From: Alphaproteobacteria bacterium
Lineage (GTDB): Bacteria > Pseudomonadota > Alphaproteobacteria > Micavibrionales > Micavibrionaceae
Assembly: GCA_021775955.1 (NCBI GenBank)
Contig: JAJFGU010000020.1
Span: forward strand, 248,001 to 312,000
DNA length: 64,000 nucleotides
Reading direction: 5' to 3'
A program made the position numbers and the translations under genes. Position 1 is the first letter of the stretch, and every line of letters begins with the position of its first letter. The notes beneath the pieces are model-generated. The model worked only from the letters and a program-made list of their open reading frames with translations. It searched no databases and was not told where the DNA came from. Below, piece after piece: positions 42,449-61,824 of this stretch.

Positions 42449-42829
42449 ATGATTGGACCGCACGAAGGAAAAGAACTGGAATTAATGCTGACAGGCGAGA
42501 AGAAACTGTCCATGTTTCACGACTCCATAATTGATGGTCAGGAAATTCCGGAAGATATTATCCCCGAAAACGCCTTTTCTACTCATGTAACAAAAGGCTC
42601 TATAAAACGTTTTTCTCAGAATATCCGTGCAGCTAAATCAGATGGTGTTATTCGTTATGTTTTCTTCACATTGCCTACAGAGGAATGGCGCGCAGAGTTC
42701 TTAATATGGCTCAAACAAAATACTTTGAAAAACGAAATGCCAAACGACAAAGCCCATGACATCCTTGTCGGCCAGCTTCTTGGCTATAGCGAAGAAGATA
42801 TCCAGGATTATTTGGCACAGTTAGATTAA
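42449..42829 (+). CDS. Small protein of unknown function
   Basis: 126 residues. It begins MIGPHEGKELELMLTGEKKL and has YVFFTLPTEEWRAEFLIWL in the middle. A perfect -10 (TATAAT, 42440-42445) with an extended TG sits only three bases before the ATG. The transcript may be nearly leaderless, or start at the ATG at 42488. The function is not known; the compact size and mixed composition suggest a soluble regulator or antitoxin-like protein, but nothing supports a choice. Its 3' end overlaps the convergent prophage gene by four bases. Confidence 0.55.
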   Translation: MIGPHEGKELELMLTGEKKLSMFHDSIIDGQEIPEDIIPENAFSTHVTKGSIKRFSQNIRAAKSDGVIRYVFFTLPTEEWRAEFLIWLKQNTLKNEMPNDKAHDILVGQLLGYSEEDIQDYLAQLD

Positions 42830-43173
42830 GTTTTAGAATCACAATCAGGACATAAGTCACCCTTGGAACCTCCATGCGGACCACCACATTGGGGACAACG
42901 GATTATTGGGCTTCTGCCAGGATCATCCTCATCCAACTCCTCATTCAGGCTAGAAAGAGTTTCGCCCATCGGTCTTATAACACCATCAACTTTTAATCCT
43001 TTTTTCTTTTGAAAACCTTCGATCGCCTTGAATAACGCTTCATCCGGATAAGGCGTTAATCCATAGTCCGGCACCTCAAAATGCCCCGTATCTAGCAAGG
43101 CATTTTTCACGGTAAAAACATCATCTAAATCTGCTGATCCGTCGCGCTGCAATGGTTTTTTTATCGTAATCAT
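42826..43173 (-). CDS. Peptidoglycan-binding-domain protein with C-terminal zinc ribbon
   Basis: 115 residues. The first 80 form a PGBD-like helical domain (DEALFKAIEGFQKKKGLKVDGVIRPMGET, given in parts: ALFKAIEGFQKKKG, DGVIRPMGET). A short acidic linker precedes CPQCGG and CPDC, two C-x-x-C pairs of a zinc ribbon. A similar GLIFPRGETVG block occurs in the product of 57221. AAGGAG lies before the ATG. It is the last gene of the phage block and probably serves cell-wall targeting; the zinc ribbon fusion is unusual. Confidence 0.65.
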   Translation of the reverse strand: MITIKKPLQRDGSADLDDVFTVKNALLDTGHFEVPDYGLTPYPDEALFKAIEGFQKKKGLKVDGVIRPMGETLSSLNEELDEDDPGRSPIIRCPQCGGPHGGSKGDLCPDCDSKT

Positions 43174-43196
43174 AATGGTTCTCCTTTTAAAAAATT

Positions 43197-43724
43197 TTAG
43201 TTCTTTCCTGAATTATTCCAGTAAATCGTCTCGTTATTTTGCAGCTTCTTGTCTTCACTGCGCTTGTAGACATAAATCCCGAGCACCGACAGCCCGATGC
43301 CCCAGATCGCACTGAGGCTGCTCATCGCATTCAGCACAATTCCGGCCCGCGCGGTATCAAACACTATCACATACGCAATACCAAACATCTGCGCCGCCCA
43401 GGTCACCGCCATGAGGTATCCAAAAGTCGGGCGCATGCGCCGCACGAATTTATCTTTTGATGCAATTTCGGCGCGCAAAGATTTGTTAATCTCGGAAATA
43501 TTCGCCGCGCGCTCTTCCAGCGCCATCTCATTCATTTTTTCGGTATGGCGATTGGCCTCGTTCATTTGCTCGGGCGTGATCTGGCCACGCCGGATAGCCT
43601 CATCAACATCGCGCAACGCCTTGGCCGCGCCGCGTGTCACCGGCGTATCGACGCTGCCCAGCGCCTCGGCCACAACATTGACCAAAATAGGCAAACCAAT
43701 TTTTGACAGTAATGCGGGAATCAT
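43197..43724 (-). CDS. 3TM phage holin (GTA-holin-like)
   Basis: 175 residues. It opens MIPALLSKIGLPILVNVVAEALG, then a charged helical part and two C-terminal membrane helices (YLMAVTWAAQMFGIAYVIVF; SSLSAIWGIGLSVLGIYVY). This matches the three-helix holin family found in alphaproteobacterial prophages and gene transfer agents (GTA_holin_3TM). It opens the inner membrane for the endolysin encoded just upstream (43737). ribosome site AGGAGAA precedes it. Confidence 0.75.
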   Translation of the reverse strand: MIPALLSKIGLPILVNVVAEALGSVDTPVTRGAAKALRDVDEAIRRGQITPEQMNEANRHTEKMNEMALEERAANISEINKSLRAEIASKDKFVRRMRPTFGYLMAVTWAAQMFGIAYVIVFDTARAGIVLNAMSSLSAIWGIGLSVLGIYVYKRSEDKKLQNNETIYWNNSGKN

Positions 43725-43736
43725 GATGTTTTCTCC

Positions 43737-44216
43737 TTATAATATGCGGTAAAAAATGTGATGGCCGATTTCGGCTGTCGGTTTTTCGCCACGCGACCAA
43801 TAGGGCGTTATACCTTTTGCATGATAATGCGTAGCGCCCCCGCTCAAATCATCCAGCGCGCCCATAATCGCCCGCTTGGCCATCCGCAGCGCCGTGGCGA
43901 AATACAAATCGCTTTCATCAACGCTTTGCAGCTTTCTAAAATTCGGATCACTGCGGTTCCAGCACGAAAACTGATACGGCTTCTGGCACACCTGAATAAT
44001 GTTATTGCCCCACCAATACCGCCCGCGCTTATCGGACTCTGCAACGCGGTTCAGCACAACACAGGCCACAGCCTGCATCCCGGCGGTGCCTTCGCCGCGC
44101 GCCTCACCCCATAATGTACGCGCCAAAACATCGGCTTCGACTTCACGGTAAAAGGCATGAGAATTCTCTTTGGACTCGCACTTGGAGTCCAAAGCAATCA
44201 GCTTTGGTTTCTTCAT
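43737..44216 (-). CDS. SleB/Hydrolase_2-type cell wall hydrolase (endolysin)
   Basis: 159 residues, no signal peptide. The catalytic domain is recognisable by ARTLWGEARGEGTAGMQAVA, with the active-site Glu, followed by VVLNRV, a Trp/Tyr-rich middle (KPYQFSCWNR) and THYHAKGITPYW near the end. Such domains are N-acetylmuramyl hydrolases or lytic transglycosylases. With the holin downstream it forms a lysis pair. A hairpin at 44239 lies just behind its start. Confidence 0.85.
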   Translation of the reverse strand: MKKPKLIALDSKCESKENSHAFYREVEADVLARTLWGEARGEGTAGMQAVACVVLNRVAESDKRGRYWWGNNIIQVCQKPYQFSCWNRSDPNFRKLQSVDESDLYFATALRMAKRAIMGALDDLSGGATHYHAKGITPYWSRGEKPTAEIGHHIFYRIL

Positions 44217-44979: not shown

Positions 44980-46467
44980 CTAATCATCCATCACCGTCTT
45001 CGCTTTATGCTGCTTACCACCGACCGCCCATTTCTGGCTACCGCGTTTGGGAAAGCTCCGCAGGCGCATCGGCTCCAGCGCCAACGCCCCGGCCACCGCG
45101 TCCAGCCCGTCATCGCGCCCATGCTTTTTACCCGGTTTCCATTCCTGCATTTCGCTCAGAAACGGTGTGTCACGCACGCTCTCATGAACATGCAACACCC
45201 GCGCCGCCAGCACGACATCAAAGGCCTCCAATATTCGCAAATCCTTGGGCCGGTTGTTGTGTACACTCTTGACACTGCATGGCACATTATTTTTGGCGAG
45301 CGCAGTGCGCAAAATTCCGGGCAACATTTTACCAATGCCGTTGTCTTCGACCGCCACAGATGGCAACCGCAAAATCTGCGCCTGATACGCCACTTGCCGA
45401 CATTGCTGCGCCGCCTCATCTTCATCACTATGATTATCGAGCTCTATATATAAGAGTTTATGCAGCCAATACTGCCCGTCCTCATCCGTAAACACCGCAG
45501 CGAAAACACTGTTATCGCCACCGCGCCCGAATGCCGGGTCCCAATAACCATGCGCTGACACCATCTGTCGGCCATTAATCTCCAGCCGGTTTATCTCCTT
45601 GGTATAATCCAGCCGCGCGTCATAAAACTGTAGCGCCGTCGGGTCTAATCGCCCTTCCGCAATATTAACGGGCCTGAGCAACATCTGGCTCGCAAACTTA
45701 TTCGGTCCACTATTGGTTTTTATACGCTCGATATTCTCAATGCTAAACCGCTCCGGCCAGGCACTAACGCCCTCATCATCAACAACCGGAATCACCAACC
45801 GTTCAAAATCTGATAAAAACACCGCATCCTCGCCCAGCTCAACACGTGGCTTATCGGCATAGATCGTGTGATAATTATGCGGCGTACCGATAAAAATCTG
45901 CGTGCCGCCCGGTACCATCACGTAATCGATCTCCAGCAATCTTTCACGAAGCAGCTCTCTCTTTTCGGGGCTACTACACGTACCCGGCACCTCAACATCA
46001 TCACATATAATGACATCGGCGCGGCTACCGGTAATGTTCGATGTAATCCCGCGCGCCAACATAGACGGATCGCGCAACTCCAGATCACGATTAACGGTAA
46101 AACGATCACCCGCCCATTGATCCAGCTTTGCCGGTTTAAGGTCCGACGTTAACGGATGACGCTCAAGAATACGCTTAACATTGCGCACCATTCTTTTCGC
46201 CAGCGAAAAATCCGCCGCCAAAACAAGGATACGCAAAGCCGGATTGATGTACAAAAGCCATGCCGCAAACAGCCCGGCTATCGTGCTCTTGCCGCTGGAG
46301 CGAAACGCCATGAGAAGCAGCCGCACCTTGCCATCGCGCCAATTTCTCTCCAGCCATTCCGCCATCTTTAAATGAATTTCCGGCGTCGGCAGACCCATCC
46401 TCTGCCCGTTCCATTTGCGGATAAAGTCGACGAAATTGTGTTTCTTGTTCGCTTCTATATTTGTCAT
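44980..46467 (-). CDS. Phage terminase large subunit (T7-like TerL)
   Basis: 495 residues. The ATPase part has the Walker A-like FRSSGKSTIAGLF (about residue 55) and Walker B VIICDDVE (about 152). Between them are RILVLAADFSLAKRMVRN and SNITGSRADV. The nuclease part has WDPAFGRGGDNSVFA and VEDNGIGKM, the acidic residues of an RNase H-like fold, and DGLDAVAGALALEP at the end. It packages DNA through the portal. No small terminase is recognisable in the window. Confidence 0.93.
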   Translation of the reverse strand: MTNIEANKKHNFVDFIRKWNGQRMGLPTPEIHLKMAEWLERNWRDGKVRLLLMAFRSSGKSTIAGLFAAWLLYINPALRILVLAADFSLAKRMVRNVKRILERHPLTSDLKPAKLDQWAGDRFTVNRDLELRDPSMLARGITSNITGSRADVIICDDVEVPGTCSSPEKRELLRERLLEIDYVMVPGGTQIFIGTPHNYHTIYADKPRVELGEDAVFLSDFERLVIPVVDDEGVSAWPERFSIENIERIKTNSGPNKFASQMLLRPVNIAEGRLDPTALQFYDARLDYTKEINRLEINGRQMVSAHGYWDPAFGRGGDNSVFAAVFTDEDGQYWLHKLLYIELDNHSDEDEAAQQCRQVAYQAQILRLPSVAVEDNGIGKMLPGILRTALAKNNVPCSVKSVHNNRPKDLRILEAFDVVLAARVLHVHESVRDTPFLSEMQEWKPGKKHGRDDGLDAVAGALALEPMRLRSFPKRGSQKWAVGGKQHKAKTVMDD

Positions 46468-47645: not shown

Positions 47646-47680
47646 TGCTTTGCCACTCCAAAAAAATGTTTCTGGGAGAG

Positions 47681-47709
47681 CTAATAGCAAAGCATAAACA
47701 TTATGTCAA
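47681..47709 (-). promoter_or_regulatory. Consensus sigma70 promoter of the sigma4-like moron
   Basis: On the minus strand TTGACA (47709-47704), 17 bases, then TATTAG (47686-47681). The -35 is perfect. It lies 35 bases before the ATG at 47645. Confidence 0.7.
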
Positions 47710-47716: not shown

Positions 47717-49741
47717 CTACAAGTGCTTACCCACAATATACCACTGCCCGCCATCGGAGGTGACGGTGATCGCGCTATACTGAGAACTCAACGGCTGGGT
47801 TGACTGGTCCGGCCCGGACCCGCCTTGCTCGCTCACCGTGATAACATTCGCCGACACATCGGTCTTTTTAATCGTCACTGTCCGGCCCACAGATTCCGCG
47901 GCATTGGCCGGTGGCAAACGCGCGGTCATAACGCCACCAAAACTAGACAGCAAATACGTGTCCACCGCCATATCAATGTCGTATGTTCCACTGCCATCAA
48001 AAAACCGCGTGTTCCCGGCCGAACGGTTCGACGCAATAACAAACCACTCCGCCCCGTTGGATATCGCCATCATGTAATCATTCTCCGCGCCGAGGAAGAA
48101 ATTCGCGCCGTCCGGCCCCGGCCCGGTTTTTTCAGCAACCGTTATCACGTTGCCGGATGCGTCGGTTTTCTTCACCACCATCATCACGCCAACTGCCGTC
48201 GAGGCCAGCGGTAAATTCACCGTCAACGCCCCGCCAAAAGACGACACCAGATGCACCGAATGCGACAGATCAAGGTCAACGCTGCCGCTGGTATCGATAA
48301 ACTCCGTATCATAGCGCTGCAGCGTCGCATTCATGTCCGTCACAGTGGTTTTCTGCAAACGGTTTTTATCCGGGAACCCGGCATTATAGGCGGTATATTC
48401 ACCGCCCGATAAATCCCAAATCGCCGAACCATCAGAAGCCGATAACAAATTATATATCGCCGTTTCAATCGACCCAGCCTCCAGCTTTATATTCGGCACC
48501 TGGTTATTCGACTCTGCATACGGATTAATCAACAGCGTCTTGTTTGATGCCGCACCGATAATAAAGCACCCTTGCGCTGTACCTTTAACATTGGCCTCGC
48601 AATCTATGAAAGCATTATTGAACGAGCCGTGCTCCACATAAAACCCGGCGCCGGTAATATCCGCACCCAAAGAATACGCACGGCAGGCATGAAACTTATT
48701 GGCATTCGGCGTATCGCCCGCCCCGGATTTGGTCAGGTGAAAACCATTCACCGAAGGCTGCTCCACCAACACGCGATCAAAATTATTCCAGTAACACGGC
48801 TTGTTGGTATCGGTATAACCATCCAGCAACACGCCGGTTTTCGGCGCAACAATTGTGACGTCCGTCACCGATGTCTGCACGCAAGGCCGGTCACGACCAA
48901 ACAATTTAATCCCAACATCGCCGCCTTCAATACGCAAATTGGCAATCATGGCGTGATCAGCAGGCACCTCAATCGCATTGAATGTATCGGCCTGACATTT
49001 GAGAACGGATTTCGATCCCGCTCCTATCAAAGTCTGGCGCTCTCCAACCGTAATAGTCCCGCTAATAAGGTAATCACCATTGGGTAAAAACACTGCGTCA
49101 TGCGCGGCCAAAGCCTGCTGGATCGCCAGCGTATCATCGGCTAACCCGTCACCCACCGCACCAAAATCCTTCACCGAAATCAAATCGGAAAATTTATCAT
49201 GACTGGTACGCGTAGCCGCACCCGTGCCGACAGCCGTAAAGTCCGGCGGCGCCATTGCCCCCGAAAGATCGACTGCAACAGGATCGCCATTACCATCAAA
49301 GCCCAGCGCTTTATTCGCGCGCACACTCCGGTCCGGTAATTCAGATACTCCTGGCGTTTCATGCTCGCCATATTTCAGCGCCGTCTCATTCTCGCGTTCA
49401 ACCTGCTGGATCGCCGCCACCATATAATCAAGCTCGTTATTAATCGACTGCGCCGAAAAATCCCCACCCTCCAAAAAATCTGTCACACGCTCGATTGGTA
49501 AAATCCGCTCCAGCGTTACAATCACGCCACTTGTCGGTGCCGTATCAAACGTCACATCTCCCCCTGCTGTCGCGCCCGCACCAGAAATCGTAAAGCCGCT
49601 CACCTGCGGCGCACCATCCAAAGACACAACCATGTCCTCGCTGGCAAAAATGGGGAATGGATATAGAAATACGGTTTGGCTACCATTCGCCGTATAACGC
49701 ACAACAGGCGTCACCGCCGGCATTTTAATATGCTCGATCAT
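47717..49741 (-). CDS. T7-like tail fibre/tailspike with pectate-lyase-type beta-helix
   Basis: 674 residues. The N-terminal 130 residues fit the T7 tail-fibre attachment domain (VRYTANGSQTVFLYPFPIFA and SAQSINNELDYMVAAIQQVE). The middle opens ISVKDFGAVGDGLADDTLAIQ, the start of the pectate-lyase superfamily beta-helix used by tailspikes to cut or bind polysaccharide. The C-terminus has two similar blocks (VVKKTDASGNVITVAEKTG and TIKKTDVSANVITVSEQGG), an internal repeat. It attaches to the particle and recognises the host surface. Confidence 0.85.
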   Translation of the reverse strand: MIEHIKMPAVTPVVRYTANGSQTVFLYPFPIFASEDMVVSLDGAPQVSGFTISGAGATAGGDVTFDTAPTSGVIVTLERILPIERVTDFLEGGDFSAQSINNELDYMVAAIQQVERENETALKYGEHETPGVSELPDRSVRANKALGFDGNGDPVAVDLSGAMAPPDFTAVGTGAATRTSHDKFSDLISVKDFGAVGDGLADDTLAIQQALAAHDAVFLPNGDYLISGTITVGERQTLIGAGSKSVLKCQADTFNAIEVPADHAMIANLRIEGGDVGIKLFGRDRPCVQTSVTDVTIVAPKTGVLLDGYTDTNKPCYWNNFDRVLVEQPSVNGFHLTKSGAGDTPNANKFHACRAYSLGADITGAGFYVEHGSFNNAFIDCEANVKGTAQGCFIIGAASNKTLLINPYAESNNQVPNIKLEAGSIETAIYNLLSASDGSAIWDLSGGEYTAYNAGFPDKNRLQKTTVTDMNATLQRYDTEFIDTSGSVDLDLSHSVHLVSSFGGALTVNLPLASTAVGVMMVVKKTDASGNVITVAEKTGPGPDGANFFLGAENDYMMAISNGAEWFVIASNRSAGNTRFFDGSGTYDIDMAVDTYLLSSFGGVMTARLPPANAAESVGRTVTIKKTDVSANVITVSEQGGSGPDQSTQPLSSQYSAITVTSDGGQWYIVGKHL

Positions 49742-49766: not shown

Positions 49767-50327
49767 TTAGAATAAGTTTCCAGCAAAGCTCAACACATCA
49801 AGACCGGAGCCAATGCGATTGGAAAGTTGATTGGCATTGGCCGACAACCGTCCAATCCGCTGGCTTTCCTGGAGCTGCGTTCTTTGAATAACATTCAACC
49901 GACGCTGTTGAGAAATGTTCTGATCAAGCGCACCAAAACGTAACGCATCCAGCCGCATCCGTTCTTCGCGGTCATTATCGGTTTCTTCAAACAAGCCAAG
50001 TAAAACCGCCTCGGCGCTACCACCACTCGATGAAATTCCGCTCCCACCGAACTGTGCGCGTTGCCGCGCCACCGCCCGGCGTAGCGCATCACGCCGCTTG
50101 CGCTCGGCCGTATCGGCATCGGCGGCAATACGTTCACGATCCAGCGCCGCATCTTCGCTGCTTTGCCTTTGCTGCTCCGCCTGGCGTTGTTGTAATTGTT
50201 GTAACGCTAAATCCTGTCCGGCGCGCGCATCACGAGATGCTGCCTCGCTTCCTACAATATTCGACACAAGGCCGACGCCCTGCGAAATCACCGGCAACAA
50301 TTGTAAAACGGGTGTCAATCCTCCCAT
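49767..50327 (-). CDS. Small internal virion protein, gp14-like
   Basis: 186 residues. A short hydrophobic N-terminus (LLPVISQGVGLVSNIVG) is followed by a Gln/Arg/Ala-rich coiled coil and FGGSGISSSGGSAEAVL, a Gly/Ser pattern common in alphaproteobacterial podoprophage genes. The position between tail nozzle and fibre matches T7 gene 14 (ejection protein). The large partners gp15/gp16 are not found next to it. Assignment is by position, size and style. Confidence 0.55.
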   Translation of the reverse strand: MGGLTPVLQLLPVISQGVGLVSNIVGSEAASRDARAGQDLALQQLQQRQAEQQRQSSEDAALDRERIAADADTAERKRRDALRRAVARQRAQFGGSGISSSGGSAEAVLLGLFEETDNDREERMRLDALRFGALDQNISQQRRLNVIQRTQLQESQRIGRLSANANQLSNRIGSGLDVLSFAGNLF

Positions 50328-51206: not shown

Positions 51207-53105
51207 TTAATCATTCACCTTCAACTCGGTCATCACCGCCAGCAACGTAAAGGGCAGCGGCACATCCTGTTCGATCCGCCACAGCGCTTTGGTGCTGTCT
51301 TCGGCCCAGCCCAGCGCCCGCACACGAATATCACCACTCACAAGCGGCGGCGGTGAATCCAACACCGGATCCTCACCAAGCTGGCGCAGCGCAATATCAT
51401 TTAGGCCCCGCCCAACATCTAGCCGCAGCGCTGCCGTATTCTGCAGACGATAAATCCCTTCGATCAAACGCACCTTGCGCCCGCCGCCAGCCGCACCAAC
51501 TTCGCTCGGCGGCAGCGGCTCTATAATATGTGTGTAGGACAAACCAATTTCGACTTTGTTGGCCGCTTCGTCAATTGTAATCGCACCACCGGTGACAATT
51601 TTATTCGATTGCACTTCACCATCGGCGACAATAGAAACGGTAAGCCCTTCAAGATGATCCAGCCCAGCCCAATTCGTCGCCGCCGTAATAACCTCCCCGG
51701 TCAGCGCAGAATCCAAATTTAACATGTCATCAAACTGCTCAATCATGAAATTCCCATCACGCTGCGTCAACATAAACACATCATCGCCGACAATCGCCAC
51801 AGACTTGACTGAGCCTTGCGTTTCATGCAGCGTCCAGGCCGAAACCTGCTCACTCCTGAACACGGTCAGCGTCGCAAATTTTCCGTCATCACGCACAATA
51901 AACAACAAGCGCCGCCGCTGATCGTAATCCTGATCAACCGGCGTCGTAATAATATGCCGCGACAGAAGCGACAAATCCGTCGACTGATAGGCCTGCTCAA
52001 CATCCGTATAAAGAAACTCATGAATTTCCTGTTTGTTGCGCGCAATATAAAATGTCGCACCGTCAACATTGACCGGTGGAATATGCCGATCCAAAACCGA
52101 GCCAATCCGCGTTTGCCGCCTGATCTGCACACTCGCCGGTGTCAATGGATCACCCGTAACCATCCATTCGGCGCCGCTGGTAAAAACCTGCAAGTGCCGT
52201 CCCGAAAATATCCCGCGAATGGCATTGACCTGATCGGATAAAATCGCGAACTCAATCGCTTCGTCATCCAATCCGGTGCCTAGATTAAAATTAAACAAAT
52301 CACCCGATTTGGAAAACCACAACCGATTGGGCAAATCCCGACTGCCGCCAATCACCAGGCGATCCTGGTGGAACGCTATAGATACCGGGTACCCACGCAC
52401 AGGCGAAAACGCCTGCTCAAACCAGTCAATCGTCGGATCGGTGTCCGGCAAATCTTCAATCACATCAACCGTTACAACTGTCGGTGAGTCAAAATCCGTA
52501 ATCTCAACTTCTTTGCCATTAACACGCATACGCGTACCTTCATGCCCGGCGGCAAAAATATCAGATGAAGATGTCAGCGTAATGCTACCCGTTGTCCCGC
52601 TTGGCGTTAACGTCACTTCTGCGCCAGAAAATTTGAAATGCGGCTGATTGACAATATTGCCATCGGTAAAGAATGACCAATCGTCGAGGCTCCATGCACC
52701 GCCCGACCCACGCGTCAACTTTTTTGGCGTCACATCAGGATGCACCATCAATAGAGTATCGGCGCTTTGCGTCCAGGCGATTTGGGAGATCTGCGCCGCG
52801 CTCCACGGGGCGCTCACCGTGGCATCCTTCACCCCACCCGCATAAATATCAATCTGTCCGTCAGTAATCACCAGCAAATAAGTCTGCTGCGTGTTAAATT
52901 CAAACGCGATGAGCTTGCCATCACCAGCGGCACTATCAATAAAGCCAAGGCCCGAGCGCCGCGTCACGCCGCCAGTGGGCTTGATAAACACATTTTGCAG
53001 CGTCAGAGCGCCATTATCATAGGCGCGCAAATCCCCGCGACCCAGCAATTCCGGCGATACCTCGCCTGCGGTAAAAGTTGTCTTGATTTCACGTATCCGT
53101 GTCAT
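51207..53105 (-). CDS. Tail tubular protein B / nozzle (T7 gp12-like)
   Basis: 632 residues from the ATG at 53105, nine bases after AAGGA. It opens TRIREIKTTFTAGEVSPEL and then GALTLQNVFIKPTGGVTRR, a very common signature of podovirus nozzle/tail proteins in alphaproteobacteria. A beta-rich body with repeats follows (FIVRDDGKFATLTVFR, AWTLHETQGSVKSV). It forms the distal tail tube and exit channel with the gp11-like protein. Normal length for the family. Confidence 0.85.
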   Translation of the reverse strand: MTRIREIKTTFTAGEVSPELLGRGDLRAYDNGALTLQNVFIKPTGGVTRRSGLGFIDSAAGDGKLIAFEFNTQQTYLLVITDGQIDIYAGGVKDATVSAPWSAAQISQIAWTQSADTLLMVHPDVTPKKLTRGSGGAWSLDDWSFFTDGNIVNQPHFKFSGAEVTLTPSGTTGSITLTSSSDIFAAGHEGTRMRVNGKEVEITDFDSPTVVTVDVIEDLPDTDPTIDWFEQAFSPVRGYPVSIAFHQDRLVIGGSRDLPNRLWFSKSGDLFNFNLGTGLDDEAIEFAILSDQVNAIRGIFSGRHLQVFTSGAEWMVTGDPLTPASVQIRRQTRIGSVLDRHIPPVNVDGATFYIARNKQEIHEFLYTDVEQAYQSTDLSLLSRHIITTPVDQDYDQRRRLLFIVRDDGKFATLTVFRSEQVSAWTLHETQGSVKSVAIVGDDVFMLTQRDGNFMIEQFDDMLNLDSALTGEVITAATNWAGLDHLEGLTVSIVADGEVQSNKIVTGGAITIDEAANKVEIGLSYTHIIEPLPPSEVGAAGGGRKVRLIEGIYRLQNTAALRLDVGRGLNDIALRQLGEDPVLDSPPPLVSGDIRVRALGWAEDSTKALWRIEQDVPLPFTLLAVMTELKVND

Positions 53106-53119
53106 GTAAAACATTCCTT

Positions 53120-53459: not shown

Positions 53460-53744
53460 ATGTCTGAAGACAAAAGAGAACAACCTGAATTATTTATGGA
53501 GGCTGTACAGGGCATTCCCGAAACAGACCTTAAAATAGCTGCAAAAACGATCGGCGCTATCAATAATGGTGCCTCCATAGACGACATTTCCGAGATGGAT
53601 CTTGAAGTTACCACAAACGTGCTTGGGCAAGACTACGTTCAAAATGCTTTTTTAGGTCGACTGCCTCAGGAAGACAATGATAGTCCTAAGACAGAAAGAA
53701 TGGGCAACCTTGTTATAGAGCTACGAGAAAATAATCACTCCTAA
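53460..53744 (+). CDS. Small acidic moron protein of unknown function
   Basis: 94 residues, plus strand. Strong promoter and ribosome site. It begins MSEDKREQPELFMEAVQ, is acidic overall, and contains KIAAKTIGAINNGASIDDI. No motif is recognised. The 3' end overlaps the stop of the tail tubular A gene by four bases (convergent), showing insertion exactly at the gene boundary. Confidence 0.65.
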   Translation: MSEDKREQPELFMEAVQGIPETDLKIAAKTIGAINNGASIDDISEMDLEVTTNVLGQDYVQNAFLGRLPQEDNDSPKTERMGNLVIELRENNHS

Positions 53745-54310
53745 CTCCTCACATCTACAAGCGTAAAATCTTCAATTCTGTTCGGCGTGTCCTGCTGCGC
53801 ATCAATTTGCCGTGCGCGTTTAAATTCATTTTCTGCCAGACGAAAGGCGGCTTCGGCGCGGCTTGTGCTCTCGGTCACCGGGATCACAAATTCTGCTGAC
53901 AACCGTGCTATTAACGCCTGATCAAAATAAGGAGGGAACTCCTCTTCCTCGGGCCGGAATATATATGTCAGCACCACAGAGTCGGAATTGGTATGCAACG
54001 CACCGCGCGCGATGCGGTAATTCAACCCGCGCCCACGCGTTCCACTACCGGCGGACATCGCCCGCAAATAATCATTGGGAAGCTGGTAAGCTTTATCGTA
54101 ATCGGCAATCGGCGGCGTGCCGAGCTCGGTTAGCTCCAGCTGCCCGGTCGCAAAGCTCCAGGCATAAGCCGAAAGCAGCGCATCACGCACCGGACCAAAC
54201 AACGCGCCAGCAACTTCGGATGTGGCGGTACCGTCATCAAAAGACGTAATTGGCGCGGCGCCAATACGTATAAGCGCCCGACTTGCGAGCGCGACATCAT
54301 TAAGTGCCAT
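53741..54310 (-). CDS. Tail tubular protein A / adaptor (T7 gp11-like)
   Basis: 189 residues. The N-terminus MALNDVALASRALIRIGA and the following DGTATSEVAGALFGPVRDALL and AWSFAT are the well-known start of the gp11-like head-tail adaptor family. It forms the ring between portal and nozzle. The stop is shared in overlap with the plus-strand moron. Normal size. Confidence 0.85.
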   Translation of the reverse strand: MALNDVALASRALIRIGAAPITSFDDGTATSEVAGALFGPVRDALLSAYAWSFATGQLELTELGTPPIADYDKAYQLPNDYLRAMSAGSGTRGRGLNYRIARGALHTNSDSVVLTYIFRPEEEEFPPYFDQALIARLSAEFVIPVTESTSRAEAAFRLAENEFKRARQIDAQQDTPNRIEDFTLVDVRS

Positions 54311-54537: not shown

Positions 54538-54783
54538 TTACGAATAAACCGCTACGGTGACGCTGCTACCGTCATTGCCGGTTACGATATAAAACTTCGT
54601 AGCCGGGGTGCCGTCCGTATCGATGTTAACAATAAACAGATCGTTCAGACGCAGCATATCGACGGCGCTATCAAAATAGCCTGCCGTTTCGATGCCTGCT
54701 GTGTCATCTGTCGTGGTGTAGTGCCACAAGGTAAAGTTGTTGGCATAGGCCAACACACTGAGGTCGGATGCTTTATAAGCCAT
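54538..54783 (-). CDS. Small phage structural protein (capsid-adjacent)
   Basis: 81 residues. It begins MAYKASDLSVLAYANNFTLW, with a beta-rich body ending VTVAVYS. Proteins of this size and start lie directly downstream of the major capsid gene in many alphaproteobacterial podoprophages. They are probably minor head or decoration proteins, but the role is not proven. A GGAG site precedes the start. Confidence 0.7.
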   Translation of the reverse strand: MAYKASDLSVLAYANNFTLWHYTTTDDTAGIETAGYFDSAVDMLRLNDLFIVNIDTDGTPATKFYIVTGNDGSSVTVAVYS

Positions 54784-54805: not shown

Positions 54806-54937
54806 CCCCGTCATCCCCGCGACTGAGCGAAGCGAAGTTTAAACAGCGGGGATCCAGAAAAGAGCCAAGCAAAGCTTGGCACATATGGGTCCCGTTTGTT
54901 TAAGTCTGCTTCGCAGACCAACGGGATGACGGTGGGG
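54806..54937. repeat. Large GTCATCCC palindromic repeat next to the capsid gene
   Basis: Outer arms CCCCGTCATCCC (54806-54817) and GGGATGACGGTGGGG (54923-54937) pair across the unit. Inner hairpins are GCCAAGC/GCTTGGC (about 54862-54880) and GTCTGCTTCGCAGAC (about 54904-54918). It starts about 20 bases beyond the start of the 54538 gene and ends 13 bases from the capsid stop. Same family as 44239 and 6845. Confidence 0.7.
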
Positions 54938-54950: not shown

Positions 54951-55784
54951 TTAATCTGGCGTTTCATCAGATTCAATGGTGATGATACCGGTCTCATCAA
55001 TCAGTCCGGCGCCCTGGCTCATCATGTTGTTCACAAAATGTGCCGCACGATCGCCATGCCACGTGATGTCAGTTTCGACATCAGAAGCGACAGCATGACC
55101 AACAGCGTTTTTGTGGAACCAAAAACAGGAACGGATATCATTGCCATCAATCGGCAGACCGGAATGCGGGATCCAGATCGTACCCAGCCAGAACTTGGCT
55201 TGCGTAATCGAGGCGAATGGCAGTTCTTCATGGCCGATATAATCGGAATGAACAAACTCATCTAGAGCCAAAAGCTCACTCCATTGTTTCCAGCCGACGA
55301 TGCAGTAACGCTGGCCGTCATCGGGCACATCGTTATCACCGAAGGTTTCAAACGCCTGAAGAACCTTGTCTTTGGTCAAGCCAACATTGCCATCGGCAAT
55401 CGTATTGGCCGAAGCACTGGCAAGCTCATTGATAATAAGCTCGTCGGTTTTACGTCCCAGTGCACCCGCACCGGCAGTCGCAATAACCTGACGTTCATCA
55501 ACATTTATTTTGAGCTCATCAAGATGGTCAACCCAGTCACCCGCATAATAATCCTGCAAAGTGACCTCGACATTGGAATGGGCCAAATTCATGACCGGCA
55601 CCATGCCGTGGGTTGATTTGGTTGAAGCCGTACCTTTGCCGACTTTTTGAAACACGGCCGTAGAGCCGTTAACGTTGCTGATTGTGCGAACAGTGTTCCG
55701 CAATTTGGAACCCTGACGCTGATAGGCCTGATGCACTTCTTGTTCGAACTGCTTAATGAAGGCCTGGTCGATTGTTGTAGACAT
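54951..55784 (-). CDS. Major capsid protein (podovirus)
   Basis: 277 residues from the ATG at 55784, with AAAGAGG upstream. It begins MSTTIDQAFIKQFEQEVHQAY, followed by the E-loop-like region and LAHSNVEVTLQDYYAGDWVD. ITWHGDRAAHFVNNMMSQGA near the end is a well-known capsid block of this family. It has an HK97-like fold by family. It is preceded by a leader of about 160 bases with a strong hairpin. The position after the scaffold gene is as in T7. Confidence 0.88.
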   Translation of the reverse strand: MSTTIDQAFIKQFEQEVHQAYQRQGSKLRNTVRTISNVNGSTAVFQKVGKGTASTKSTHGMVPVMNLAHSNVEVTLQDYYAGDWVDHLDELKINVDERQVIATAGAGALGRKTDELIINELASASANTIADGNVGLTKDKVLQAFETFGDNDVPDDGQRYCIVGWKQWSELLALDEFVHSDYIGHEELPFASITQAKFWLGTIWIPHSGLPIDGNDIRSCFWFHKNAVGHAVASDVETDITWHGDRAAHFVNNMMSQGAGLIDETGIITIESDETPD

Positions 55785-56169: not shown

Positions 56170-56556
56170 ATGCTGGGGATGTTTTTTTCATCACTAAAAA
56201 AGAAACCGGACAACGATCAGTTTACCACCCGCCGCCGTCATGCACGGCGCGATTGTGATCGCTGCGTCAGTGTGATTGCTGGCAAAACCTACCCGGTTGA
56301 AAACTGGTCGATGGGTGGCCTGCAAATTACAGGCGACGACCGCATGTTCACCCCCGGCCAAAAACTCGATATCACCATGAAATTTAAACTGCGCAATAAC
56401 ATTATCGACATATCGCATAAAATGGATGTCGTGCGCAAAACCAAAGGCAAAATTTCTTTTGAATTTACGCCACTCAGCCAAAAAATTAGCAACAACCTGC
56501 AACAAGTGGTCGATGATTACGTCGCCGGAAAGTTTGCTGAATCACATATGGTTTAG
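56170..56556 (+). CDS. PilZ domain protein (c-di-GMP binding)
   Basis: 128 residues, plus strand. The PilZ motif is RRRHARRD (R-x-x-x-R) followed at the usual distance by ENWSMGG (the D/N-x-S-x-x-G part), so c-di-GMP binding is likely. No other output domain is present. AGAGGAAAAG precedes the ATG. A weak promoter (TTGTAT, 17 bases, CATAGT) lies about 110 bases upstream. It is inserted between the capsid leader and small phage genes, so it is host-like cargo or a leftover host gene. Confidence 0.8.
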   Translation: MLGMFFSSLKKKPDNDQFTTRRRHARRDCDRCVSVIAGKTYPVENWSMGGLQITGDDRMFTPGQKLDITMKFKLRNNIIDISHKMDVVRKTKGKISFEFTPLSQKISNNLQQVVDDYVAGKFAESHMV

Positions 56557-56812: not shown

Positions 56813-57208
56813 TTAAGACTTACATGCCGCTAGAGCAGCCCCTGCTTCATCCATTCTTGATTTAGCGGCTGCAACTTCAGATTCAATGTCTGGTATTTTT
56901 GATTCCAGTTCTACAATTTTCTGTTTTAGCTGTTCTTTCTCTCTTTCAAGTGTAATTAGCGTTTTTTCATCAAAGACAGCATCCAAAATTTCCTCTCCTA
57001 TAACACCTGTTGAGCTTCCAATACCTAATCCTTCACCACCTCCAATCATGGCGCCTCCTATTATTCCAGGAATACCACCAGGTATGCCAGCTATAGCACC
57101 TCCAACACCACCAATGACACCTCCACCTATATGCATATTTCTTCCGGTTTTTCTTTCCTCTGCAATTTTTTCTTCCAATTCAGAAAGCTCTTCTTTCATA
57201 CTTTGCAA
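56813..57208 (-). pseudogene. C-terminal part of a gene split by an in-frame TAG stop
   Basis: 131 residues from TTG 57208, or fewer if begun at the ATG at 57199. The frame is the same as the peptidoglycan-binding gene upstream, with only one TAG (57223-57221) and four sense codons between. Coiled-coil character runs straight across the stop (AEQRFE, stop, VREELQSMKEELSELEEKIA). The fragment then has a glycine-zipper stretch (IGGGVIGGVGGAIAG) and a second coiled coil. A CAG or GAG to TAG change would explain it. Stop readthrough or reinitiation is also possible. Confidence 0.6.
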
Positions 57209-57220
57209 CTCTTCGCGTAC

Positions 57221-57883
57221 CTACTCAAAACGTTGCTCCGCAATAACAAAAGCGCCGCTTGCATTTGCAAATTCTACTGCTTCTTCCTCACACTTATTTT
57301 CATCATTTTGCAGCGGCGGTTCCGGTTTTTCCGGCGGTTGATTGGGATCATCCTGCGGAGGGTTTTCCGCGGGCGGCAGATCAGATGGCGGCTCCTGCGC
57401 CGGTGGTTTTAGCTCATCTGCCGGCGGCGGCGCTTCATTACCATCCTTTTCAGCGAGCTGTGCCTGTTGAAAATCTCCAACACCAGGCAAAGGAAGGCGT
57501 ATATCATCATCTCTACGCTTATCAGCCGTTTCTACCAACGCACCCACGGTTTCACCACGCGGAAAAATCAGGCCATCCTGTTTTAAATCGCGTTCACTCT
57601 GAAAATCACGAATAGCGTTATCCAGCCCGACACTGAACAAGCCAGTTGGCCCTTCGGTCTGCTCTAAATCAAGCAGATCATTACGCTCCATCAACGTTTG
57701 TACGCGCGCAACATCGTCACGGCTATTGGTCTGGTTACGTCCCACCCCGTCCGATAAATTACCAAGCGCATTTGTGCTAACGTTTTCCCTGCGCTCACGG
57801 ATGCGCTGAAAATCCTTATCCTCTTCTTCTGGTATACTGCCAAATCCGTCGCGCTGGATGCCCGATAATGATCGTCCAAACAT
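57221..57883 (-). CDS. Peptidoglycan-binding-like phage protein, N-terminal part of a split gene
   Basis: 220 residues from the ATG at 57883, with CAGGAGT upstream. A disordered charged N-terminus precedes a PGBD-like region (DNAIRDFQSERDLKQDGLIF, then RGETVG), which resembles the gene at 42826. A long Pro-rich linker (PPAENPPQDDPNQPPEKP) and the start of a coiled coil follow. The frame is then cut by TAG. Conserved FPRGETVG suggests wall binding by the particle. The downstream gene fragment completes it. Confidence 0.65.
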   Translation of the reverse strand: MFGRSLSGIQRDGFGSIPEEEDKDFQRIRERRENVSTNALGNLSDGVGRNQTNSRDDVARVQTLMERNDLLDLEQTEGPTGLFSVGLDNAIRDFQSERDLKQDGLIFPRGETVGALVETADKRRDDDIRLPLPGVGDFQQAQLAEKDGNEAPPPADELKPPAQEPPSDLPPAENPPQDDPNQPPEKPEPPLQNDENKCEEEAVEFANASGAFVIAEQRFE

Positions 57884-57915
57884 TTTATTACTCCTGATAT
57901 TTAGTTCTTCATTGC

Positions 57916-58041
57916 CTAGAGCAAACGCCATTTAGCCGTGGCAAGGCATCCGAGGCGAGCCGCGCGGAATGTACACTTTCGTACATGAGCACGGCAAGCC
58001 GACGGATAACGATGTCCACGGTTGAATGGTGGACGCTCTAG
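57916..58041. repeat. 126-bp palindromic dispersed element, copy 2
   Basis: Runs from CTAGAGC to GCTCTAG, perfect 7-bp inverted ends, with the arms pairing along nearly the full length around GTAC-ACTTTC-GTAC. It is about 80 percent or more alike to the 14695 copy by eye. Its CTAG supplies the TAG stop of the scaffold gene, exactly as the first copy does for the I78-like gene. It lies between the scaffold gene and the split gene. Confidence 0.75.
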
Positions 58042-58694
58042 TTATTACCGAACATGCGTTGGAACCCGTCCGTCACTTTCGCAACAAAAGCAGGATCACG
58101 GTCGCGCCAGTAACGCGGGTCACGCATCATCGAAGTCAGCTCTTTCTCATCAAGACCGGCGGGAGCGCCCTCGCCGCCGCGCTGCAATGTTGGCTCGTCT
58201 GATTTCATCATCCGCTCGAGCGCCAGAACGCCTTCAAATGAACTCGACATATTTTCCAGCACGCCAGGCGGCAGGTTTTTCTGACCAAAGGCCTGCAATT
58301 GCCGTGACATTTCCTTCCAGCGCTCCGGCCCGCCATAATGCGCAACCAACTTTTCCACTTCACGGTCAGCATCAAATTCTGCTGCCATCTCCGTAATCAT
58401 CGGCACCATGCGCTCGGCCGCCAGGTCGTAAACCTCCTGCGCCTGCTCATGGCTAAAGCCTTTTTCGTGTAGGCGGCGGTTGATTTCTGCATCTGGCTGG
58501 AACAATCCATGCGAGCAATCAATGCAAAACTCTTCCGGGCTTTTCGGCGCTGATGGGTTTTGTGACATTTTTTTCTCTAGCGCGTTATAGGAATCGATCA
58601 TCGCCTGCAGGCGCACATCTTTTGTTTCCGGGTCACGAAATTTATCCGGAATTGTTGTTTCATCAAGGTCTTCGGTTAATAGATTAACAGTCAT
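58038..58694 (-). CDS. Capsid scaffolding protein (T7 gp9-like)
   Basis: 218 residues, acidic and helical. It begins MTVNLLTEDLDETTIPDKF; YNALEKKMSQNPSAPKSPEEF follows. A helical C-terminal part ends in DPRYWRDRDPAFVAKVTDGF, a common end of podovirus scaffold proteins. It lies between the portal and the capsid, as in T7. Its stop codon comes from the 126-bp repeat. It drives prohead assembly and is lost on maturation. Confidence 0.75.
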   Translation of the reverse strand: MTVNLLTEDLDETTIPDKFRDPETKDVRLQAMIDSYNALEKKMSQNPSAPKSPEEFCIDCSHGLFQPDAEINRRLHEKGFSHEQAQEVYDLAAERMVPMITEMAAEFDADREVEKLVAHYGGPERWKEMSRQLQAFGQKNLPPGVLENMSSSFEGVLALERMMKSDEPTLQRGGEGAPAGLDEKELTSMMRDPRYWRDRDPAFVAKVTDGFQRMFGNN

Positions 58695-58971: not shown

Positions 58972-60657
58972 TCAGCGTTCGTTGCCAGTGACGGCATCGG
59001 TTTCTTCCGGCGGAATATCTGCAATATCGGCCGGGATAGAAATTGAAATATCCGCCGGAATATTTTGTGTAATGTCTTGTGATATATCCGGCGATATATT
59101 TTCTTCGTTAATGTTTTGATCATTATTGATCTCCTCTTCTTTTAGTGCGTTTTGTATGGTTTCAATCGGCGGGATCGGCAGCTCATTGCGGATCAGATCA
59201 CTGGGAACACCCAGAGCATCACCCAGGAACCGCGCCGCTTGCGGTAAGTTAATCGCGATCGAGGCTTCCGGCCCCATCGCCAGAACCGTATTGATCCAGC
59301 TGAGTGTGTTTTGAACATTGCGCTGGCCTTGCGCACGCGCCAGTGGTGAGCGGTAATCCACCGACACAAGACGTCCGTCGAGCGAAATATCCGGCACCTC
59401 ACCACGCCTCCGCAAAATCGAAAACGCCCGCGTAATCAGCGGCGTTAGCAATTCCGATTGCAATCGCCCATAAGTTGCACCAAGCAGCAACGACATCTCC
59501 GCCGTGCGCTCCAGAACTTCCGTCGCTGTCATGCGCGGTCCATTCACCGGTGCCAGACGATCGGTCAAAAGTGCATGACGAATACGCGCCTGCAAACTAT
59601 CCAAAATCAGCTGCGACACATCAAAACGCCCCGGCATATCCAGCGGCTGCAGCCCTTTCGAACCAACAGCCTTAGGAATAATACTCCCCGGTGTTAGCTC
59701 AATATTGGCAGGGTTCAAAATACCGTCATCATCCGCCTGCCAGATTCCCGTCACAGCAATCGAAGCATTCTTGAGGATCAACTCAACAACCTTGTTGGCC
59801 GTCTTAATATCCGGCAGCGCCTTCATAATCGGCGAACGCCCATAAATCTCACCGGGCGATTTCAGCCAACGGAAATTAATCACTGGCGATTGTTCAAACC
59901 GACCAACATGCAACGGTATTGGCCCACCACTAACCTCAATCAAGCAAGCTGTGAAATCATAGACCAGACCATCGGGCAAAACTGCCTCCAGTATTTTAAA
60001 CCGAGCCTGCGGATCGCGCGACGCTACCTTTATAACTTCCGATGGAATATCGGCAAACGGATAACGCGCCTTCAATTGTTCAATCGTCAACGAAAGCAAT
60101 CTGTAAGAACCGTCCAGAAATCCGTTCTCACCCTCCTCCAGCACCACCTGCGTCAGTGGCACCGAAGAAAAACGAAATGCTGACGTGCTACCGGGTATTG
60201 ATTCCTCAAAATATAAACTCGCCGTTCCGCCAACCACTAAATCGAGATAACACTGATGAATCTCAACAGAGAAATTCGAGCGATCGAAATGATCCTGTAT
60301 CGTCTTGGCGGCTTTCTCAAGAACGGGGGCAAGCGACTCTGCTTCCTGCGGTGATAAATCAGGCCCAGGCTTCAGGCCAAACCACTGGCTCCAACTCGGC
60401 GTTAAATTACCAAGCAAACTGGCGGCCAGTTGATCCGCCGCATCCATCGCCGTCGCATCATAAATATTTTCCGTGCGACCTGCACCGGGGCGTTGATCTC
60501 CCATAAACCCGCCACGCTGCGGCAGTGCAAAATCGTAACAATCTTCCCAAAGTTTTTCCCAATTACTACGACGCCGTTGCGCCGCTTCAAAACGCGAGAA
60601 TAACTCTTCCAGATTTTTTTCAGCTTCGCCTTCTTCATTCAATGTAACAATCGACAT
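58972..60657 (-). CDS. Portal protein (T7 head-tail connector-like)
   Basis: 561 residues. It begins with an acidic/helical region, then RSNWEKLWEDCYDFALPQRG, a hallmark of the T7-type portal, followed by NIYDATAMDAADQLAASLLG and a beta-rich body. The C-terminus is an unusual Ile/Asn/Asp-rich tail with repeated DISQDITQNIPADISISI-type words, which looks like low-complexity growth. It forms the DNA entry ring. Three small genes follow in the reading direction upstream. Confidence 0.9.
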   Translation of the reverse strand: MSIVTLNEEGEAEKNLEELFSRFEAAQRRRSNWEKLWEDCYDFALPQRGGFMGDQRPGAGRTENIYDATAMDAADQLAASLLGNLTPSWSQWFGLKPGPDLSPQEAESLAPVLEKAAKTIQDHFDRSNFSVEIHQCYLDLVVGGTASLYFEESIPGSTSAFRFSSVPLTQVVLEEGENGFLDGSYRLLSLTIEQLKARYPFADIPSEVIKVASRDPQARFKILEAVLPDGLVYDFTACLIEVSGGPIPLHVGRFEQSPVINFRWLKSPGEIYGRSPIMKALPDIKTANKVVELILKNASIAVTGIWQADDDGILNPANIELTPGSIIPKAVGSKGLQPLDMPGRFDVSQLILDSLQARIRHALLTDRLAPVNGPRMTATEVLERTAEMSLLLGATYGRLQSELLTPLITRAFSILRRRGEVPDISLDGRLVSVDYRSPLARAQGQRNVQNTLSWINTVLAMGPEASIAINLPQAARFLGDALGVPSDLIRNELPIPPIETIQNALKEEEINNDQNINEENISPDISQDITQNIPADISISIPADIADIPPEETDAVTGNER

Positions 60658-60660
60658 ACT

Positions 60661-60966
60661 CTACTCTCCCAATAATGTTTTTCTCTGCCCACCAGCAGTA
60701 GCCGCACTGAGCAAACCACGAAAACTAGTTTGTATCGTTCCAAAACGGCCACGCCCTCTTTGCAACAAACTGCCTGTCCGTTGCTCGGACGCCGTGGGAT
60801 CACCTGAACTCGTTACGCCGCCACCGGTGCCGCCAGTAGACGTATTCGTACCGCCACCGCTCCCCGATCCTGACGTTGTTTGCGTTGTGGTCACAGCCGG
60901 GCCAGGCACAAAAACCACCTGCGGCTGCGCTGCCGGCACAACCGGCCGGGATGCTAAACTACCCAT
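60661..60966 (-). CDS. Small Gly/Thr/Ser-rich phage protein
   Basis: 101 residues from the ATG at 60966 (AAGGAG upstream). A Gly/Ser/Thr-rich linker (TSGSGSGGGTNTST) precedes a basic C-terminus (LLQRGRGRFGTIQTSFRG). It ends GQRKTLLGE, a pattern also seen in other alphaproteobacterial prophages. Its start overlaps the previous gene by eight bases. Probably a minor structural or assembly protein; function unknown. Confidence 0.6.
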   Translation of the reverse strand: MGSLASRPVVPAAQPQVVFVPGPAVTTTQTTSGSGSGGGTNTSTGGTGGGVTSSGDPTASEQRTGSLLQRGRGRFGTIQTSFRGLLSAATAGGQRKTLLGE

Positions 60967-61393
60967 ATGAATAATCTCCTTTGTGTGAATGTTTCGCGTA
61001 TGAATTCTTCCCTCGCAAAAATCGGTAAAGCTGCCAGGGCGTAAAAATAAATCTCTTGTGAAGACCGAGCACACGCTTCACGGCTTCAACACAGGTAAAA
61101 AACATGAAGGGCGCCGCTTTTTGATGGCGCTCTACATATGTCTCAACCACTTTATGTCCCCGGTTTTCAAGCCAGTACGGCAAATCAAATTCCGGTGGCA
61201 CATGATGATGCACGGAAATCTCCGTATGATTGGACAGCGGGTCCAGACTGATCCAGCGTTGCCCGTCATTCAGCAAGACAAAACAATGCCTAAAACCAGG
61301 TTTAAAAACTTTCAGCCAGGACAAATCTGTCTGACCGCTAAAAACGACCCAGGCCGTCTGGCAATTTTCATTCTGTCTTCCAAATGCACTCAT
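60959..61393 (-). CDS. Conserved phage protein with permuted NlpC/P60 (YiiX-like) features
   Basis: 144 residues. WVVFSG, then GFRHCFVLLNDGQRWISLDPL, then FFTCVEAVKRVLGLHKRFIFTPWQLYRFL (given in parts: FTCVEAVKRV, FTPWQLYRFL). A His followed by an acidic residue and then a Cys-x-E before TP-x-x-L is the order seen in permuted papain-like YiiX proteins. Catalysis is not proven. Start overlaps the upstream gene (ATGA). It may be a peptidase or amidase of the particle. Confidence 0.55.
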   Translation of the reverse strand: MSAFGRQNENCQTAWVVFSGQTDLSWLKVFKPGFRHCFVLLNDGQRWISLDPLSNHTEISVHHHVPPEFDLPYWLENRGHKVVETYVERHQKAAPFMFFTCVEAVKRVLGLHKRFIFTPWQLYRFLRGKNSYAKHSHKGDYSYG

Positions 61394-61824
61394 TCTGCTA
61401 CCCCCTCATAAAGCACCGCTTTCTGGGTCCAGTTCGGGCCCGGCACAGAATTAACAACCCGCACAATCCCTTTGCGAATCAGAAGCGGCTCGATTCGCTC
61501 CAGCGCCTCACTCCACAAATCCCAGGCGCGCACTTCCTTCACCCGCTTTTGATCAGGCGGCAAAAGACGGCGGCCATAATGGCGTAACACCAACAAATGA
61601 TCGCGCAGCAAGCGGCGCTGGCGATAAAGACGGTCCAAAACCTTCAAAATATCCACAGGTTCGCAAGGCCTCACGCCCTTACCAATCCCGCTGACAATCC
61701 GCGCGCCTTCATTCCTGGCCTCCTGAGCCTGAACAAACCAGAACCAGGCCTCTTCAGCCGTTTCAAACGGGGTCGCTTCGCTACCGGACTGCCCTCTGGG
61801 GATATAGTTTTCTTTAGACACCAT
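61390..61824 (-). CDS. Conserved phage protein, first gene of the block
   Basis: 144 residues, basic. ETAEEAWFWFVQAQEARNEGA is followed by a helical Arg-rich region (LYRQRRLLRDHLLVLRHYGRRLLPP) and LWSEALERIEPLLIRKGIVR. This type is often found at the head of podoprophage modules. It may be DNA-binding or a packaging helper (perhaps standing in for a small terminase), but no fold is recognised. AAGGA lies before the ATG, and the promoter is 48 bases upstream. Confidence 0.6.
   Translation of the reverse strand: MVSKENYIPRGQSGSEATPFETAEEAWFWFVQAQEARNEGARIVSGIGKGVRPCEPVDILKVLDRLYRQRRLLRDHLLVLRHYGRRLLPPDQKRVKEVRAWDLWSEALERIEPLLIRKGIVRVVNSVPGPNWTQKAVLYEGVAE

Follow-up and report, generated by a model that had tools for sequence, protein, structure and literature searches.

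A conserved podovirus-type particle gene cluster in Micavibrionaceae and other Alphaproteobacteria, probably a host-run gene transfer agent

The gene cluster and its surroundings

We have analysed a 64,000-nucleotide stretch of DNA, called the window below, from a member of the alphaproteobacterial family Micavibrionaceae (assembly GCA_021775955.1, contig JAJFGU010000020.1, positions 248,001 to 312,000). The genome is 2.32 Mb in size and 99.96% complete, with an estimated contamination of 0.92%, and the contig is named C12 here. Within the window, a run of morphogenesis genes extends from position 61824 down to 43197, which a preliminary description had proposed as a candidate gene transfer agent (GTA) of the podovirus type. 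Inspection of the open reading frames (ORFs) showed that all core frames of this run are open, and the core genes lie on the reverse strand.

The run starts with three small conserved genes that recur in relatives. The AlphaFold2 models of the first (61390..61824) and the second (60959..61393) had mean predicted local distance difference test values of 81 and 84, that of the first being mostly helical, and for neither protein did a fold search of the PDB give a match at E 0.001. The second has the invariant residues H36, C37 and C101, and the third, a small glycine/serine-rich gene (60661..61074), showed a weak PHROG match (E 0.009). These are followed by the portal, or head-tail connector (58972..60657; PF12236, E 7e-146; phrog_332), a Bbp19-like phage protein (58728..59123; PF25181, E 3e-15), a scaffold of the T7 capsid assembly type (58038..58694; PF05396, E 8.5e-10), the major capsid protein (54951..55784; PF19821, E 1e-80) and a conserved 81-amino-acid protein (54538..54783), which has no Pfam match and is a complete ORF in 75 of 80 loci. 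The cluster continues with proteins of the tail tubular A type (53741..54310; phrog_394, E 6e-42) and B type (51207..53114; phrog_376, E 3e-146), a gene in the position of T7 gp14 (49767..50327), the tailspike (47717..49741; phrog_1640 at the N-terminus, E 7e-31), the T7-type terminase large subunit (TerL; 44980..46467; NF033889 termin_lrg_T7, E 1.3e-122), an endolysin annotated as a cell wall hydrolase (43737..44216; PF07486, E 3e-21) and a holin of the GTA holin family (43197..43724; PF11351 GTA_holin_3TM, E 6e-10). Walker and nuclease motifs, in what we take to be their usual definitions, are present in TerL. Accordingly, the family matches and the ORFs agree with the earlier account of portal, scaffold, capsid, tail tubes A and B, tailspike, TerL and lysis pair in T7 order with intact frames. 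The gene once called gp14-like recurs in relatives in that position and has no family match.

On the one hand, the block contains virus-derived genes for head, tail, packaging and lysis. On the other hand, replication and integration genes were not seen: no integrase, polymerase or primase turned up in the profile scans, which covered 20 ORFs with PHROGs and a set of ORFs with Pfam and NCBIfam, the short forward-strand ORFs of the block lying mostly outside both sets. This combination, already noted in the preliminary description, is the one expected of a GTA. Large internal (ejection) proteins of the T7 gp15/gp16 type gave no match among the ORFs scanned either. A comparison of positions 42000-43800 with 61000-63000 for att-like repeats gave a longest exact direct repeat of 11 bp, which does not exceed chance (shuffles: mean 10.5, maximum 12). 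The flanks are host genes, as had been described, with isocitrate dehydrogenase (icd) and a folate dehydrogenase gene on the left and PyrE and NAD kinase (nadK) on the right; YGGT is also among the flanking genes. The divergent helix-turn-helix (HTH) gene on the right is part of the system, and the locus reaches 62906. We conclude that the block is a real particle gene set and not a recent prophage.

Conservation, descent and selection

To describe the locus in relatives, the window's proteins were compared by tblastn with 80 loci, and the 74 best (L043-L116, from Micavibrio or proteobacterial assemblies) were tallied; L117-L122, five of them Azospirillum, were left out of the tally. Gene order and strand were identical in all 64 loci with at least five core genes. 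The location is conserved as well, since nadK and/or a PyrE domain lies on the opposite strand at the portal side in 40 of 46 loci of sufficient length. Isocitrate dehydrogenase turned up in 12 of 180 stretches, including the window and a second copy in its genome, many stretches stopping short of it. In 59 of 60 relative loci, a PilZ gene in antisense orientation directly precedes the capsid. The tailspike is complete to 95% or more in 42 of 43 loci (median identity 68%), and tube B is full length in 57 of 58. Identities to the window's proteins in the tallied loci are 55-95% for the portal, 60-94% for tube B, 51-82% for TerL and 67-94% for the capsid.

The cluster is not confined to one strain. 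A capsid match was obtained in 88 of 104 Micavibrionaceae genomes (66 of the 79 near-complete ones), four of these matches being short pieces, and the portal is kept in 8 of the 13 near-complete genomes without a capsid. In the class sample, 98 of 387 genomes match the capsid, at an identity of at least 52% in 64 and of at most 36% in the other 34. The 64 capsid-bearing Alphaproteobacteria genomes span 31 family codes, and Azospirillum carries the cluster; two of these capsids are partial (G116, G392), and five class genomes have a capsid match with one stop (G116, G248, G271, G328, G453). In the phylum sample, 9 of 397 genomes match at E 1e-40, all of them Alphaproteobacteria, and none of 72,556 plasmid records matched the capsid. 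Eight of the 64 genomes lack a RogA-like gene (see below), some with far-diverged portal and tail genes; the capsid alone is a loose marker, and these eight may be phages or other lineages. As separate observations, searches of a 2.9-Mb genome from the window's genus (G003) found no portal, capsid or PyrE match, and two loci in 0.9-Mb genomes of family code f58 (L155, L157) show a 58% identical capsid, a rearranged gene set and several HTH gene copies that are short.

A tree of concatenated capsid, tube A and tube B was compared with an rpoB tree for 58 genomes, using 500 label shuffles and 999 Mantel permutations. The two trees have 18 of 25 splits in common within the family and 28 of 55 overall, where shuffling gave at most 2 in each case. 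The Mantel correlation was 0.78 within the family, 0.80 overall and 0.70 outside the family, and none of the 999 permutations was as high; single genes (capsid, tube A, tube B, portal, TerL and scaffold) gave values of 0.60-0.82 with the same permutation result in every scope. Accordingly, the cluster has co-evolved with its hosts, mostly by vertical inheritance, with deep branches agreeing only in part.

Eleven genome pairs were tried for the ratio of nonsynonymous to synonymous rates (dN/dS), of which G083-G079 was fully saturated. The ratio is mostly 0.02-0.2 and well below 1 in every computable pair, indicating purifying selection; the relaxation considered in the preliminary description is not seen. 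Higher values occur in G144-G456 (0.14-0.36; the G144 portal is broken) and in the endolysin of G351-G276 (0.48, the highest), and the tailspike of G192-G420, too diverged for dS, has a pN/pS of 0.60.

In some genomes the portal module lies apart from the capsid module with both frames open, at distances of 1.2 Mb on one contig (G420), 243 kb (G356), 133 kb (G288) and 75 kb (G021). In G456 the portal and capsid are on different contigs, that of the capsid being 3.07 Mb long, and in G144 the portal is in two pieces 17 kb apart. The complete gene set of such a split genome, whose modules are separated by 75 kb to 1.2 Mb, is beyond what one particle can carry, and split clusters with open frames are hard to square with a prophage. 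Split gene sets are typical of GTAs.

Among 50,697 phage records searched, the complete phages listed at the top were 50% identical in the capsid (Pelagibacter phage EXVC031P Hodr), 34% in the portal, 34% in tube B and 31% in TerL. For the last three proteins, identities of 31-34% to these phages may point to a clade distinct from its viral homologues, but in the tree that includes phages, which covers the capsid, two IMG/VR contigs fall in or beside the family's clade. A 5-kb record from human faeces (capsid 60%, portal 54%) is placed together with a genome that has the cluster and resembles a fragment of such a locus. From IMG/VR, the best 80 of 365 capsid-encoding stretches were taken, and nearly all of the long ones inspected hold the same cluster, several with host neighbours. 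Two contigs, L201 and L203, deviate, with capsids 68-71% identical and portal and tail proteins 25-31% identical to those of the window. L201, the one covered by the profile scan, carries primases and internal virion proteins of the gp14/15/16 type.

Sporadic genes and repeats accompany this conserved core. The antisense PilZ gene, on the forward strand between scaffold and capsid (56170..56556; PF07238, E 5e-8), may provide a link to cyclic diguanylate or antisense control. Among 180 loci including the window (threshold E 1e-8), the ORF at 42826-43173 recurs in 13 and that at 50412-51116 in the window alone (1 of 180), as does the ORF at 46554-47690 between TerL and tailspike (1 of 180), which shows a weak sigma-70 region-4 match. 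The split gene at 57221, previously taken as a sign of decay, lies in a peptidoglycan-binding/glycine-rich accessory ORF with one in-frame stop (56813-57931) that is found in at most 7 of the 180 loci, and it says little about the core. Two strongly folding palindromic repeats stand within the cluster (54810-54933 and 57916-58041); their families are scattered genome-wide, and the second has one more copy in the window at 14695-14820.

The window's genome also holds a second copy of the whole segment, 69-88% identical, on contig C15 (6311-29887; loci L153 and L154). It includes the host flanks, past icd on one side and past nadK on the other. Among the family genomes, this genome is the only one with two full-length capsid copies, and its rpoB is single-copy. 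A 20-kb piece of the central part of C15 has no second copy except for short repeats common to other contigs, and the first 6 kb of C15 have a GC content of 61-72%. An old segmental duplication, an import from a sister species and a mixed contig are the candidate explanations.

The divergent regulator and the palindrome

A gene on the forward strand at 61995..62906 is divergent from the cluster and encodes a RogA-like HTH (residues 1-76) fused to the orotate phosphoribosyltransferase PyrE (residues 87-302; NF001729, E 6e-95). In relatives, the HTH part occurs alone or with an S24 domain. Among 48 loci examined, a stand-alone HTH protein of about 200-220 amino acids is found beside the cluster in 28, a short HTH protein in 5 and the HTH-PyrE fusion in 15, all of the latter in Micavibrionaceae, with the two copies of the window's genome among them. 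The Ser-Lys pair of LexA/CI-like S24 domains is complete in 17 of the 28 stand-alone proteins, represented by one residue in 1 and missing in 10. Of two stand-alone homologues scanned, the Pfam S24 match was strong in G395 (E 8e-26) and sub-threshold in G041 (E 0.21). In a Micavibrionaceae subclade PyrE stands in place of S24, through which GTA control may be connected to pyrimidine state.

RcGTA and CcGTA, which are of the Rhodogtaviriformidae type, have a siphovirus-like tail with the GTA_TIM protein, and we used this protein as a marker for them. It occurs in 40 of the 387 class genomes and in none of the 64 with the present capsid (Fisher 0.001, kinship ignored). No match to GTA_TIM (PF13547) was found in G000, which by this marker is not RcGTA-like. 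The RogA-like HTH is present in 56 of the 64 capsid genomes, 23 of the 40 marker genomes and 46 of the 283 with neither, an enrichment of Fisher 1e-27 for the capsid and 7e-8 for the RcGTA marker, kinship again ignored. The 46 class genomes with this HTH and neither marker may hold further unrecognised GTAs or remnants.

The HTH gene keeps close to the structural genes. It lies at most 8 kb from the capsid in 33 genomes, and it is divergent in 30 of these, the other 3 being from one family. The portal was located in 16 class genomes. The HTH gene is present in 13 of them, and it is divergent and at most 1.8 kb from the portal in 12 of these 13, which suggests that the switch tends to remain beside the portal after a cluster splits. 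Overall, the HTH is linked to capsid or portal within 8 kb in 44 of 56 genomes, the portal search having covered one of the other 12.

Between the regulator and the cluster lies an operator-like palindrome, ATTTAGGATTTTTTTCCTCTTT (61906..61927). Allowing up to 3 mismatches, this version occurs twice in the genome, once per locus copy. Of 89 distinct regions between switch and cluster, 50 contain a consensus palindrome, AAATAGGA-N6-TCCTATTT, with no more than 3 mismatches in its 16 positions, where dinucleotide shuffles predict about 0.5. The consensus was derived from the regions on which it was scored, and the regions are related, so that these are not independent events. The core GGA-N6-TCC is present in 63 of the 89 regions (shuffle mean 5, maximum 10), and exact matches to the Caulobacter box GGAA-N4-TTCC are few, with 6 in 113 regions (0.35 on average in mononucleotide shuffles). 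A strong promoter had been described here; no consensus sigma-70 promoter was found on scanning 61700-62100, which leaves that claim unsupported.

Interpretation and comparison with known systems

We consider that the locus is likely to be an ancient, domesticated and mostly vertically inherited podovirus that is now a GTA run by its host. This reading follows from the conserved locus, the descent that follows the host, purifying selection, the replication and integration genes not found, and the split clusters, together with the GTA-type holin, the RogA-like HTH near the cluster, the recurrent palindrome and the full-length tailspike, whose conservation is unlike the expectation for phage spikes. 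In this respect the earlier proposal of a GTA is supported as regards a domesticated particle locus, and none of the findings named beforehand as contradicting it appeared when they were sought. The further step, that the particles carry random host DNA, we infer.

In such a system, the HTH protein would hold the cluster off at the palindrome. In relatives with the S24 Ser-Lys pair, DNA damage could lift repression through self-cleavage, and in relatives without the pair, as in the window's lineage with PyrE, another signal, perhaps pyrimidine state, would have to do so. Short-tailed heads, built in a minority of cells and filled by TerL with chromosomal DNA, would then come free as holin and endolysin lyse the cell, and their tailspike would bind kin. 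Since no ejection protein of the gp15/gp16 type was found, DNA entry must work otherwise, or delivery fails.

Several observations weigh against this reading. The candidate GTA is described here at the level of its genes, and no small terminase was recognised in the cluster, as had been remarked before. Outside the family, just 8 of 27 splits agree with rpoB (shuffle maximum 2). The capsid of a phage, Hodr, is 50% identical to that of the window, and the L201 and L203 capsids fall in or beside the Micavibrionaceae clade of the capsid tree; this capsid was probably acquired by phages from their hosts or passed between the two. Of 54 loci, 4 show no portal in a stretch of at least 9 kb on the upstream side of the capsid, and 12 loci with at least 9.5 kb downstream show no TerL and/or tailspike match there. 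Capsid and portal are both missing from 5 of the 79 near-complete family genomes (G003, G059, G088, G091, G095), of which G059 and G095 still have the HTH-PyrE fusion. The split-off portal of G038 has four stops, and the single 19-kb cluster of the window might fit a phage-size head.

Podoviral prophages of one lineage, temperate or defective, that keep returning to one site, a hot spot beside icd and pyrE, would explain why the structural genes are all phage-type, and related phages exist, two IMG/VR contigs even sharing the capsid. However, the ORFs scanned include neither an integrase nor a replication gene, att repeats were not found, and the cluster tree follows the host. We regard this account as quite improbable; split clusters whose halves are kept far apart contradict it, and portal, tube B and TerL are much closer to the 74 tallied loci (51-95%) than to the top-listed complete phages. 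Decay of a prophage remnant would fit the lost or broken genes of some relatives, such as the G144 and G038 portals and the short capsids of G009, G011, G046 and G085. The low dN/dS in all computed pairs and the nearly always full-length tailspike and tube B contradict this for the family as a whole, and it seems extremely improbable.

A domesticated particle may also have another job, for instance as a bacteriocin-like killer or a predatory tool of Micavibrio, and package little or no transferable DNA. The failure to find an ejection protein of the gp15/gp16 type agrees with this, and the podovirus-like FpGTA is discussed as possibly tailocin-like in the accessible text of its report (PMC12946183). 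However, the cluster has retained scaffold, portal, capsid and a TerL whose motifs are intact, none of which a killing tail needs. The cluster is also present in Azospirillum and other lineages, which to our knowledge are not predators. Accordingly, we consider another job unlikely, and a host-run GTA as the better account of the locus.

If host DNA is packaged, many alphaproteobacterial lineages without a known GTA have their own, derived from a different kind of phage and maintained largely through vertical inheritance. The question of why GTAs are kept by bacteria could then be tested on a second domestication, independent of the first. Two different GTAs would also be linked to one repressor family, and the switches would form a natural series, from S24 with the catalytic pair to S24 without it and to PyrE in place of S24. 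A wider scenario, which we offer tentatively and would not yet favour, is that Alphaproteobacteria have two ancient and mutually exclusive GTAs, RcGTA and a podovirus type where RcGTA-like clusters are reported absent, that RogA first repressed the podovirus type and later RcGTA, and that the PyrE fusion rewired the switch in a Micavibrionaceae subclade. According to the table of a 2019 survey, in the part available, no RcGTA-like clusters were predicted in Azospirillales, Rhodospirillales, Acetobacterales, Rickettsiales and other groups (PMC6821227).

Among the phages, Hodr has a short-tail gene set like that of the window and differs in being a phage, with portal and tube B 34% and 35% identical. 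L201 shares the short-tail gene set as well (capsid 71%), and it differs as a phage with primases, internal proteins of the gp14/15/16 type and less similar portal (30%) and tube B (27%). As for the established agents, vertical descent and the lack of replication genes are features of RcGTA and CcGTA, as we understand them and as outlined in the accessible part of PMC9662315. The present cluster resembles them in both respects, in its holin of a GTA-type family and in the RogA-like HTH, which more than half of the marker genomes have.

RogA of Caulobacter crescentus, in the portion of PMC9632790 available, is a 213-residue protein with an HTH and a LexA-like S24 part without catalytic residues, and it represses the Caulobacter GTA. 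Compared by this description, the HTH proteins of many relatives are similar in size and in HTH and S24 architecture, and the RogA box GGAA-N4-TTCC fits the GGA-N6-TCC core of the palindrome. However, RogA acts on gafYZ according to that text (PMC9632790) and not on an adjacent structural cluster, and the window's regulator differs from RogA in having the S24 part replaced by PyrE.

On induction with mitomycin, Azospirillum lipoferum and strain B510 release particles that contain random host DNA of about 10 kb (Boyer 2008, as described in the available text of PMC3899980). These particles are GTA-like and come from a genus that carries the present cluster, a link at the level of the genus, whereas the authors, in that text, pointed to another, RcGTA-like region (PMC3899980). 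If our reading is true, these unexplained particles become testable by deletion of a single gene.

A podovirus-like GTA in Alphaproteobacteria was not reported in the literature searched, in which subscription journals and bioRxiv preprints were thinly covered. The closest counterpart by description is FpGTA of Faecalibacterium, a podovirus-like GTA-like element reported in 2026 and called the first of that morphology by its authors, as far as the accessible text goes (PMC12946183). According to the same text, FpGTA is host-borne, near-ubiquitous in its genus and 'most likely podovirus-like', with an operon of TerL, portal, scaffold and capsid and an arrangement in two separate operons, in which it is similar to the present system. 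On the other hand, its hosts are Gram-positive, and its description covers one genus (PMC12946183). Unlike FpGTA, the present cluster belongs to Alphaproteobacteria, is spread over 31 family codes, and has a RogA-like switch and known flanks.

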